Source: Rufibacter radiotolerans
GTDB lineage: Bacteria > Bacteroidota > Bacteroidia > Cytophagales > Hymenobacteraceae
Assembly: GCF_001078055.1 (NCBI RefSeq)
Contig: NZ_CP010777.1
Location: 1,510,408 to 1,574,407 of the forward strand
Direction: 5' to 3'
Length of the DNA stretch: 64,000 nt
The notes under the pieces are model-generated. The model was not told the origin of the DNA, did no database searches, and was given only the letters and a program-made list of their open reading frames with translations. A program made the position numbers and the translations under genes. Shown in pieces: positions 51,183 to 60,876 of this stretch (position 1 is its first letter; every line of letters begins with the position of its first letter).

Positions 51183-51236
51183 ATGAACATGACCCAAATT
51201 CTGCACAACGCCTGGTGGCACGCACGTCAAATCTGA
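51183..51236 (+). CDS. First trp leader peptide
   Basis: 17 residues, MNMTQILHNAWWHARQI, with a tandem Trp pair at residues 11-12. The Trp codons lie in the loop of a hairpin formed by TTCTGCACA (51199-51207) and TGTGCAGAA (51253-51261). Translation may start at the second ATG (51189), as the first is at the transcription start. Confidence 0.65.
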   Translation: MNMTQILHNAWWHARQI

Positions 51237-51340
51237 TGGGTGAACCGCTTGCTGTGCAGAAATGCAATATAGAACAAGGCTCGGATTCACCCGGGCCTTT
51301 GGTGTTTCTAAGGGGGTACAAATTCAAAACAAAAGAAAAA

Positions 51341-51400
51341 ATGAAATCAGGACAGAAGAACGCAATGCAGTGTTGGTGGCACCAATCGGAAGATTCGTGA
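51341..51400 (+). CDS. Second trp leader peptide
   Basis: 19 residues, MKSGQKNAMQCWWHQSEDS, with tandem Trp codons at 12-13, preceded by an A-rich initiation region. Its TGA stop (51398-51400) is the first three bases of the antiterminator arm, the geometry expected for ribosome-controlled attenuation. Confidence 0.85.
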   Translation: MKSGQKNAMQCWWHQSEDS

Positions 51401-51456
51401 ACAGCAGGCTATTGCCTATTCTAAACTTGCCCATATCCAAAAAGGCTTGCTGTTCA
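51398..51456 (+). promoter_or_regulatory. trp antiterminator stem
   Basis: TGAACAGCAGGCT (51398-51410) pairs with GGCTTGCTGTTCA (51444-51456): 13 pairs, two of them G-U. This excludes the terminator, because its right arm is the terminator's left arm. GCTTGCTGT at 51247-51255 can instead pair with ACAGCAGGC (51401-51409), giving an upstream competitor. Confidence 0.85.
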
Positions 51457-51478
51457 TATAAAACGGCAAGCCTTTTTT
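51439..51478 (+). terminator. trp attenuator terminator
   Basis: AAAAGGCTTGC and GCAAGCCTTTT pair perfectly around a 15-base loop, ending in six T directly before the trpE start. Confidence 0.93.
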
Positions 51479-58399: not shown

Positions 58400-59413
58400 A
58401 TGCTTATTCAATTACAACCCAACATAGGGGCAGCGGAAAAAGAGGCGATCATCAACAAGGCCAACGCCCTCAAATATAAAACCACCGAGGTGATTACCCA
58501 GGCCGGCCATTACCTGGTAGGCACCGGCAAAGCCGAATTTGACGTGCGCGCCATCGGGCATTTGCCCGGCATCAAAGACATTCACATAGTCTCAGATGAC
58601 TACCGGTTGGTGTCCCGTAAATGGAAAGTGAACCCCACGGTGATTGACTTCGGGGATGGTCTGCAGATAAAGGAAGGCGAACTGGCGCTTATGGCCGGCC
58701 CTTGCTCTATTGAAAGCGAAGAACAGATTGAGAAAACCATCCAGCACTTGGTGTCACAGAACGTGCGCTTTATGCGGGGCGGGGTTTTCAAGCCGCGCAG
58801 CTCGCCTTATTCTTTCAGGGGCATGGGCCTGGAAGGCTTGAAAATGTTCTATGACTTGTGCCGTCAGGCCGGGATAAAAGTAGTCACTGAGGTAATGCAG
58901 GTATCGCAGATTGCGCCCATGGAACCATACACCGATATTTTTCAGGTAGGGGCAAGAAACACCCAGAACTTCAACCTCCTGGATGAACTGGGCAAGGTAG
59001 ACAAACCCGTGCTATTGAAACGCGGTATCTCCGGCACCATTGATGAACTGCTGTACTCCGCTGAATACATTTTCTCCGGGGGCAATGAAAAGCTCATGCT
59101 CTGCGAGCGTGGGATCCGCACCTATGAAACGGCCAGCCGTAACACCTTAGACCTTAACGCCATTCCCATTCTCAAGGAAAAGACGCACCTACCCGTGATC
59201 GTGGACCCATCGCACGGCATAGGCATACGCGAGTACGTGGAGCCCATGGCCCTGGCCGCCATCATGGCCGGTGCCGACGGAATCATATACGAAACCCATG
59301 AAAAGCCCGAAGAAGCTGCTTCAGACGGCGCCCAGACCCTAAGCTTCACAGAATCTGAACGCATGATCAGGAAGATGCGGAAGGTGTTTGAACTTCGGAA
59401 AGAGTTGGTGTAG
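58400..59413 (+). CDS. aroF: DAHP synthase (Thermotoga/Bacillus type) at the end of the trp operon
   Basis: 337 residues. An N-terminal ferredoxin-like regulatory domain of about 65 residues (MLIQLQPNIGAAEKEAIINK) precedes the class I-beta catalytic barrel (MAGPCSIESEEQ, FMRGGVFKPRSSPYSFRG, VLLKRGISGTIDE, VDPSHGIG). Feeds the common aromatic pathway. Nine bases after trpA, so it is regulated with the trp genes by tryptophan, while the fused DAHPS/chorismate mutase at 38423 falls under the Phe/Tyr leader. Confidence 0.96.
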   Translation: MLIQLQPNIGAAEKEAIINKANALKYKTTEVITQAGHYLVGTGKAEFDVRAIGHLPGIKDIHIVSDDYRLVSRKWKVNPTVIDFGDGLQIKEGELALMAGPCSIESEEQIEKTIQHLVSQNVRFMRGGVFKPRSSPYSFRGMGLEGLKMFYDLCRQAGIKVVTEVMQVSQIAPMEPYTDIFQVGARNTQNFNLLDELGKVDKPVLLKRGISGTIDELLYSAEYIFSGGNEKLMLCERGIRTYETASRNTLDLNAIPILKEKTHLPVIVDPSHGIGIREYVEPMALAAIMAGADGIIYETHEKPEEAASDGAQTLSFTESERMIRKMRKVFELRKELV

Positions 59414-59441: not shown

Positions 59442-59577
59442 GCTGTCTCCGCCTTCTTTGTTTAAGGCGTTTGTTCTGGCTCTGGTATTCCTGTCTCTGC
59501 CTTCTCCGGTTTTGGCTTTAACTTTGACTCTTTCTTTTTCAGACTCTTCCTTGTTTTTTCTATCCCTGCCTTCTCCA
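59442..59577 (+). repeat. Three spaced CTGTCTCTGCCTTCT direct repeats
   Basis: CTGTCTCCGCCTTCTTTG, CTGTCTCTGCCTTCTCCGG and CTATCCCTGCCTTCTCCA at about 59442, 59491 and 59560. The gap 59414-59875 holds these and the MITE-like element, and no gene. Confidence 0.45.
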
Positions 59578-59578
59578 A

Positions 59579-59743
59579 TTTGTCATCCTGAAAGGATCTT
59601 GGTGGCAAACGGTAATGACAGTTGAGTAAACGCCTTGAATAGGAAAAGCCTCAGAAGATGGTACGAAAGAATACTTCTAGGCTATTGGAATGAACCATTG
59701 CTTTTCTAGTTCGCCCAAAAGATCCTTCCAGATGACAAAGGGG
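59579..59743. repeat. MITE-like TCATCC element, long copy
   Basis: TTTGTCATCCTGAAAGGATC at one end and GATCCTTCCAGATGACAAAG at the other form terminal inverted repeats; internal TTTTCTAGTTCG shared with 30031-30126. No coding capacity. Confidence 0.65.
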
Positions 59744-59876
59744 GGAGATTTGACAAAATAGGAGCAGAAAATTCTAGATTCTAAGGCGAAGTTTATTCCT
59801 TACTTTGCCAAAATGATTCAACAAATAAGCTTAGCTCAAAAAAAAATCCTGAGTAAAAATTTGCATTCTTAAAAGG

Positions 59877-59884
59877 TATTTTTG
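59877..59884 (+). promoter_or_regulatory. Candidate -7 box of the structured-leader gene
   Basis: TATTTTTG fits TAnnTTTG and lies just before the folded leader. The upstream TTTG (59860) is closer than usual. Confidence 0.45.
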
Positions 59885-59910
59885 ATATTCGTCTCAGTTA
59901 TGAAAACATG

Positions 59911-59981
59911 CACCCAAATTCTAATGATTGTCAATCTGAAACCGTACGCAGAGCGTACCGGAGCGGGGACAATATTGGGTG
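59911..59981 (+). promoter_or_regulatory. Folded leader RNA domain upstream of the gene at 60058
   Basis: Three nested stems: CACCCAA (59911-59917) with TTGGGTG (59975-59981), ATTGTC (59927-59932) with GACAAT (59968-59973), GTACGC (59944-59949) with GCGTAC (59953-59958). CCGGAGC (59958-59964) can pair with GCTCCGG (60030-60036) of the terminator. A 29-codon frame, MKTCTQILMIV..., spans 59900-59989. No known riboswitch recognised. Confidence 0.55.
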
Positions 59982-60024
59982 AAAATTGATTGAGATAAAC
60001 AAGAAATTAAGAACCTACTATACA

Positions 60025-60057
60025 GCTTGGCTCCGGAAACGGGGCCAGGCTTTTTTT
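60025..60057 (+). terminator. Terminator directly before the ATG at 60058
   Basis: GCTTGGCTCCG, GAAA tetraloop, CGGGGCCAGGC, then seven T: an 11-pair stem with two G-U pairs. The U-run touches the ATG, as in the pheA attenuator. Confidence 0.85.
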
Positions 60058-60825
60058 ATGCCTACTGCCATGTATCAGCAACCTTATCACCTGTACTCTA
60101 TCCAGCAACAACAGACCTGGAACATCTTGTACACCAAACGGTCAGAAGCTCTTTCTGCCGTGGTTTCTGCGCCCTTTTGGGCGGGGGTCAATGCGCTGGA
60201 GCTAAAGGCTTATTTCATTCCTGATTTCCAGAAACTCAATTTCCATTTACGCGAGCAGAAAAGCGAATGGGAGGTAGTAGCGGTAGAAGAACCCTTACGG
60301 CCCCGCCAGGTGCTGGCCAAATGGGCGAAACAGAAATTTCCCGCGGTTACCTCTTTGCGCCTGCACCCAGACGCCGATCTGCGCCTACAAGGCAATAAAG
60401 ACCTGTTCCAGGATGTGTTCAGCCAATTGCCGTGGTTGTTGCAACCTGAGGTAGCCAACTTTATGGAGCGAATTGGGCAACTGTCTTTGCACTACAAAGA
60501 CCCAGCCGCTACGGAGTTGCTTTGGCGCCTGGCCCAGCATGTGTTGGGCAACGGCTTGCTGCGCGACCAGGACGGAAAGGTGACCTTATTTGGCGCCTAC
60601 CTGCTTTCCAATGCTCCGGAAGGGGAGGCTGCTCTTAAAAGAGAGAATGCCTGGCAACCGGCTGTTCTGGAAGAAATCTTAGGTCAACCCTACAAGTTTG
60701 GGGAAACTGACAGGTATTTCGTGTTGGAAAGCCTTTCTGATCTGGACTCCCTGGCTACTCAGCTTGAGAAAGATGGATTACCATTGGTGGAAATTTCTAC
60801 TCAGTTGCAGCTAATAGCTGGGTAA
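60058..60825 (+). CDS. Uncharacterised protein behind an attenuator-like leader
   Basis: 255 residues from ATG 60058; the frame is open up to TTG 59986, but that would translate through the terminator hairpin. I do not recognise a family. No signal peptide or membrane segment. Aromatic- and glutamine-rich N-terminus (YQQPYHLYSIQQQQTW), a central basic segment with LRPRQVLAKWAKQKFP, a long helical region (about 130-200) and LLWRLAQHVLGNGLLRDQDG. Ends TQLQLIAG. It follows the trp operon and its leader shares a sequence block with the trp leader, which hints at amino-acid-linked control. Confidence 0.65.
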   Translation: MPTAMYQQPYHLYSIQQQQTWNILYTKRSEALSAVVSAPFWAGVNALELKAYFIPDFQKLNFHLREQKSEWEVVAVEEPLRPRQVLAKWAKQKFPAVTSLRLHPDADLRLQGNKDLFQDVFSQLPWLLQPEVANFMERIGQLSLHYKDPAATELLWRLAQHVLGNGLLRDQDGKVTLFGAYLLSNAPEGEAALKRENAWQPAVLEEILGQPYKFGETDRYFVLESLSDLDSLATQLEKDGLPLVEISTQLQLIAG

Positions 60826-60834
60826 TTTCTTTTT

Positions 60835-60876
60835 CCTGTTTTGGGCCTGTTTTCTGGAAAACAGGCCCAAAACAGG
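60835..60876. repeat. GTTTT palindrome, near-perfect 42-bp copy
   Basis: CCTGTTTTGGGCCTGTTTTC, centre TG, GAAAACAGGCCCAAAACAGG: perfect 20-base arms. Confidence 0.9.

Follow-up and report, generated by a model that had tools for sequence, protein, structure and literature searches.

A conserved terminator leader with a nearly leaderless short reading frame upstream of a phenylalanine hydroxylase-like gene in Rufibacter: a candidate variant of leader-peptide attenuators

Attenuators of amino-acid operons, such as those of the E. coli trp, his and pheA type, are the described systems with which the leader treated here has to be compared, and in Bacteroidetes there is also Bacteroid-trp RNA, a tryptophan leader registered in Rfam. 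For Flavobacterium, leader-peptide attenuation is reported 5′ of amino-acid operons, along with leaders that are structured but match nothing in Rfam, for example that of pheA (PMC9723704). As far as Rfam and open-access papers are concerned, we found no description of an attenuator that belongs to a hydroxylase gene, nor of one from this order, and an earlier account may exist elsewhere. The leader described here lies in a stretch of 64,000 nucleotides from Rufibacter radiotolerans, which is called the window below. It is about 160 nt long, and its parts follow in the order of a Bacteroidetes-type promoter, an upstream open reading frame (uORF) of 29 codons, an intrinsic terminator, and the gene for a phenylalanine hydroxylase-like protein, pPAH (Table 1). 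The best explanation of this arrangement is that the leader is related to tyrosine leader-peptide attenuators and that its cue has been changed.

Table 1. Features of the pPAH leader and the adjoining genes; position 1 is the first letter of the window.
Feature	Position	Strand	Remarks
DAHP synthase gene	58400-59413	+	Closes the trp cluster; neighbour conserved on the 5′ side
Promoter	TTG, 59861-59863; -7 box GATATTCG, 59884-59891	+	20-nt spacer; from 16-species alignment and spacing table of relatives
uORF, 29 codons	59900-59989	+	MKTCTQILMIVNLKPYAERTGAGTILGEN, then stop; open at 29-32 codons in 16/16 species
P1	59911-59917 with 59975-59981	+	[A/G]CCC pairs with GGG[C/U] in the conserved core
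P2	59927-59932 (AUUGUC) with 59968-59973 (GACAAU)	+	From folding and alignment
P3 hairpin	59942-59949 with 59953-59961	+	One C (59958 or 59959) is bulged out; relatives show compensatory changes
Strand A, CCGGAGCGGGG	59958-59968	+	Belongs to P3 in the terminated fold; its partner in the competing fold is the terminator 5′ arm
Second antiterminator helix	59973-59980 (UAUUGGGU) with 60013-60022	+	Extends A:B
Strand B, GCTTGGCTCCGG	60025-60036	+	Terminator 5′ arm; can pair with either A or the 3′ arm
Intrinsic terminator	60024-60057	+	12-pair stem, GAAA loop, seven T at 60051-60057
pPAH gene	60070-60825	+	Encodes a phenylalanine 4-hydroxylase-like protein that has lost the iron ligands; 251 aa if counted from the conserved ATG

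The predicted promoter of the leader follows from the Bacteroidetes consensus TAnnTTTG (PMC9723704). In relatives, the -7 box reads TATATT[A/C]G, with TTG 20 nt 5′ and an ATG 8 nt 3′ of it. A sequence-only reading that preceded this analysis had pointed to a box TATTTTTG at 59877, and the alignment and the spacing table replace it with the overlapping GATATTCG. Therefore, the transcript would start at about 59896-59900. The region from 59889 to 60060 folds at -55.9 kcal/mol (z = -5.55, a value reached by 0 of 200 shuffles), and folding from 59897, that is, of the likely transcript, still gives -49.7 (z = -4.57); thus the claim of a folded leader holds well beyond chance. Three nested stems had been proposed as well, of which the inner ones are kept in the 16 species, while the outermost lies mostly outside the transcript and is not conserved. 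As a part of the switch this outer stem (5′ arm 59892-59899) was rejected, since it overlaps the promoter and start region.

For the likely transcript two mutually exclusive folds are predicted, and this is what an attenuator needs. Both prediction and conservation point to an antiterminator that takes up the 5′ arm of the terminator, and the terminator itself stands between promoter and gene, so that the attenuator layout proposed from the sequence is borne out. If folding is carried out with the 3′ arm omitted, as though the polymerase had just passed strand B, the antiterminator is the minimum free energy structure in most species; if the 3′ arm is included, the terminator appears in 16 of 16 full-length minimum free energy structures. 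The terminator hairpin with its loop and U run had been recognized correctly, except that its stem has one pair more than the 11 counted at that time. As had been stated, CCGGAGC (59958-59964) and GCTCCGG (60030-60036) are exact complements; their pairing extends through the genus, in some species by way of two-sided changes.

How well are the two folds conserved? In the 16-species alignment, 89.4% of the cells pair in the structure of P1-P3 plus terminator against 24.6-43.7% in slid versions, and 85.5% in the competing A:B structure against 28.5-55.0%, counts that lean towards the chosen structures, for RNAalifold on the raw alignment gave the terminator alone and the figures for P1-P3 and A:B come from counting pairs in structures named beforehand. 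Changes on both sides of a pair are found mainly in P3, in four pairs of this helix. The complementarity of A and B is equalled by no more than 10 of 200 shuffles in 14 of the 16 leaders; on the alignment, the shuffle controls of A:B are modest. Two A:B pairs, at alignment columns 68:151 and 72:147, are changed on both sides, and the terminator pair 147:162 is mismatched in five species, the A:B pair on the same strand-B base being kept in all 16. Would a plain constitutive terminator, which insulates pPAH from the trp/DAHP-synthase transcript and regulates nothing, be enough to explain the locus? A strong intrinsic terminator 3′ of the trp-DAHP synthase cluster is what such an insulator would look like. 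However, it stands between pPAH's own conserved promoter and pPAH, and the competing antiterminator is kept genus-wide and in the sister leaders described below, both of which make this explanation quite improbable.

The leader was found in all 16 Rufibacter species examined, always 5′ of the same gene. Homologues devoid of the stems, which had been named as a finding that would speak against the proposal, were looked for among these, and every homologue in the genus has retained both the terminator and the inner stems. A covariance model of the 5′ half of the leader, R1, detects one element per genome in the 16 genus members, and no convincing match at other genes of 204 genomes of the family and 390 of the order, as far as fast filters, which may miss distant forms, can tell; weak matches at L050 and L051 were discarded as false positives in coding sequence. 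Rfam 15 gives no match to the leader at gathering or relaxed thresholds, which agrees with the first impression that it resembles no known riboswitch, and matches to mir-1303 and SpF11 (E 0.5-3) were taken as chance.

A riboswitch nevertheless has to be weighed. P1-P3 would then be an aptamer, for example for Phe, Tyr or pterin, a bound ligand would favour the terminator by keeping strand A within P3, and the uORF would be incidental. Such an RNA would suit the conservation of P1-P3 in 16 of 16 species with two-sided changes in P3, the wobble bases that are invariant in the genus, for example in GTC at codon 11, the lack of codon bias in the uORF, and the single element per genome beside a gene related to aromatic amino acids. 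It does not suit the absence of any Rfam match or of a convincing copy 5′ of other genes in the family and order genomes searched, and it gives no reason for an ATG locked to the promoter and a frame open in all the species. Moreover, the sister leaders of the neighbouring paralogue have the layout in common and not the core. Neither these leaders nor the R1 search, within the reach of its filters, revealed a core conserved beyond the switch pairing across genes or genera, and we regard a riboswitch as unlikely.

Is the uORF translated? Its ATG is placed 7-8 nt after the -7 box in the genus leaders, and its stop comes 5-13 nt beyond the 3′ arm of P1 in 16 of 16 species, including the frame-shifted ones; in three species the C-terminal part is in another frame (+1 in L012, +2 in L014 and L015). 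Counted by parsimony, changes at the first, second and third codon positions number 42, 47 and 65, the third being highest (permutation P = 0.03), and on unpaired columns alone this excess drops to P = 0.10. Close uORF pairs, which are not independent of each other, show 121 synonymous differences where 59 are expected. Pairing of the RNA can account for much of the conservation of the uORF. The evidence for its translation, drawn from sequence comparison, is moderate.

The uORF has no run of any residue, in accordance with the earlier remark that it is free of amino-acid bias, and in the uORF class of pPAH leaders no single amino acid is enriched, so that no trigger by codon starvation is visible. 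A run of regulatory codons for the relevant amino acid is absent from the leader class of the window and occurs in the sister Tyr class only; because of this, the pPAH leader is filed as a variant and not as a classical leader-peptide attenuator. Trp codons were rejected as the cue, as codons 6-16 contain no Trp and a downstream TGG is absent from several species, and so were Phe codons, Phe being not constant in the uORF. Asn is the one residue found in codons 6-16 of 36 of 36 non-Tyr uORFs, in about one copy and with no rationale. It might also be imagined that a protein of the TRAP kind, or another RNA, acts on the attenuator by binding the P1-P3 region. The two-fold layout would serve any effector that chooses between folds, but no repeated binding motif is seen in the leader, no candidate regulator adjoins it, and the promoter-locked uORF would be left unexplained. 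We consider such an effector improbable.

Upstream regions of hydroxylase-type genes were then surveyed in the family and in some other families of the order. Nearly every such gene sampled in the family has a comparable leader with a short uORF, and several genes in other families do not. These sister leaders form two classes: uORFs with Tyr runs, which precede canonical hydroxylases, and uORFs without any aromatic run, which precede the PAH1 gene adjoining DAHP synthase and the pPAH of the window, their length and position being similar to those of the Tyr class. The R. radiotolerans genome itself has a Tyr leader, MTFSNNAYYYYYRDSPFRNRMRVFDLN (MTFSNNAYYYYYRDSP...), 5′ of its own canonical hydroxylase (L031; G000:C1, upstream of 3301055, minus strand); its uORF contains five consecutive Tyr codons and a near-perfect 12-nt complement to the terminator. 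Other Tyr runs are NYYYYR (L032 and L033), YYYYYP (L017-L018), and RYYAYAYYAP in genomes with two adjacent hydroxylases in the order DAHPS-PAH1-PAH2. In genus g3 of the family (L118-L121 and L123-L127), a stretch very rich in Tyr and Ser codons, such as YSYCLSVYSYYSYYYRYY, and a terminator lie before hydroxylase genes. Rfam gave no match to the 12 sister loci tested.

It is to be noted that the layout is kept where the sequence is not. In nearly all the leaders the ATG of the uORF is 4-8 nt past the -7 box, so that the uORF is nearly leaderless, and in most sister leaders, different as their sequences are, strand A starts after about 45-61 nt of the uORF. The competing pairing recurs in most of them, for example as GGAGTCGGGC/GCCCGACTCC and CCGTTTCGGAAT/GTTCCGAAACGG, and in the PAH1 class the A:B antiterminator is the RNAalifold consensus; indels 5′ of strand A in this class are multiples of three. 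The two classes of genes are also distinguished by the enzymes: genes with Tyr leaders encode the iron ligands His-His-Glu in 35 of 35 sampled cases, and in the PAH1 class Gln stands at the position of the ligand Glu in 21 genes, while 8 have retained Glu, a count that omits L136 and L137 as wrong-strand readings. The 21 genes (L085-L101, L026, L068, L079 and L081) have Gln within FTVQFGL or FAVQFGL. A FastTree tree of hydroxylases groups the paralogue of the window with the non-Tyr class at a support of only 0.33, and this grouping is not claimed.

A ligand-sensing RNA and a leader peptide had been held equally likely at the start. The balance now tilts to attenuation coupled to translation, because all 16 species have an open uORF with a promoter-locked start and its third positions vary most, with the weakening on unpaired columns given above, and because of the Tyr leader peptides of the sister genes and the indels of multiples of three before the competing strand in the sister non-Tyr class. 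We thus consider it probable, with reservations, that ribosomes on the nearly leaderless uORF control the leader as a transcription attenuator. It would work as follows. RNA polymerase would start at the predicted site, and a ribosome would be loaded on the uORF very near the 5′ end of the RNA. If this ribosome lags while it reads the first half of the uORF, it would hold P1, P2 and P3 open, and strand A would be free to pair with strand B as it emerges; the antiterminator would then block the hairpin, and pPAH would be transcribed. If translation continues without delay or does not begin at all, P1-P3 would form or strand A would be covered, and strand B would pair with the 3′ arm to stop transcription at the T run. 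In the Tyr leaders of canonical hydroxylases, the runs of Tyr codons would be the stall site; these codons are absent from the pPAH branch, and hence the cue would have changed. The competing pairings are predicted folds, conserved in the alignment as the promoter-locked uORF is, and together with the sister Tyr leaders they are what we infer from that the uORF is translated, that the position of the ribosome picks the fold, and that control runs in this direction.

Leader-peptide attenuation is probably native to this genome, since leader frames with Trp-Trp are present at the trp operon in the same window. Before trpE, the frames MNMTQILHNAWWHARQI (51183-51236), which starts 4 nt after TATATTTG, and MQCWWHQSEDS (51365-51400) can be read, the coordinates being taken from the sequence, and terminator-like hairpins lie near them at 51276-51299 and about 51442-51475. 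The region looks like a tandem Trp attenuator and has no Rfam match.

The controlled gene had been regarded as unknown and as starting at 60058. It belongs to a known family, and its start is probably the conserved ATG at 60070 (MYQQ...), as judged from the 16-species alignment. pPAH matches Biopterin_H of Pfam (PF00351; 42.1 bits, cut-off 22.7) and, below the equivalog cut-offs, phenylalanine 4-monooxygenase of NCBIfam, and aligns with the phenylalanine hydroxylase of C. violaceum (PDB 1ltu/3tk2) over residues 7-229 with E of about 3e-18. All 16 species of the genus have the gene, and the set of 2-His-1-Glu (His-His-Glu) iron ligands is complete in the pPAH of 0 of the 16; therefore, to judge from its residues, pPAH is probably not an iron-dependent hydroxylase. 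The gene follows that of DAHP synthase wherever the fetched flank reaches, with a canonical hydroxylase between them in two species. Two repeats were seen nearby. A perfect 20-nt inverted repeat at 60835-60876, directly 3′ of the pPAH gene, is probably its terminator, and the gap between DAHP synthase and the leader contains an imperfect one (59572-59746) with arms of 21-23 nt that are 76-78% complementary; a similar sequence lies upstream in L015, and this may be a small mobile or REP-like element.

What can such a leader on such a gene mean? On phenylalanine hydroxylase, a Tyr leader would make a simple feedback loop, as the enzyme converts Phe into Tyr and a shortage of Tyr-tRNA would turn its gene on. 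The pPAH leader would be a natural variant of it, in which the switch is kept and the sensing codons are absent, on a paralogue without the iron site. It is possible, and put forward here tentatively, that the degenerate paralogue and its leader changed together: a Tyr attenuator would have been rewired to a cue other than codon starvation, in that the nascent peptide or the RNA senses an aromatic metabolite, and the pseudoenzyme would now serve aromatic amino-acid metabolism in a new way, by regulation or by binding. This pairing of leader and paralogue lets one ask how attenuators change their cue, and what a conserved hydroxylase pseudoenzyme does.

Compared with known systems, the pPAH leader is like Bacteroid-trp RNA in being a probable Bacteroidetes attenuator with a putative leader peptide, and differs from it in its gene, in having no Rfam match, and in the lack of constant Trp codons. 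With the attenuators of the E. coli trp, his and pheA type it shares a short uORF, an RNA predicted to form terminator or antiterminator, a gene linked to amino acids and a length of about 160 nt; unlike them, it has no run of regulatory codons, its uORF is near the 5′ end of the transcript, and a hydroxylase-like pseudoenzyme takes the place of a biosynthetic operon. The protein is like the C. violaceum enzyme in the alignment over residues 7-229, and has lost the His-His-Glu set. Finally, the Tyr leaders of canonical hydroxylases agree with the pPAH leader in the length of a nearly leaderless uORF, in the position of strand A, in strand B and in the gene family; they have several Tyr codons before strand A and an intact iron site in the enzyme, whereas a run of this kind is absent from the pPAH leader, and the paralogue behind it has lost the site.
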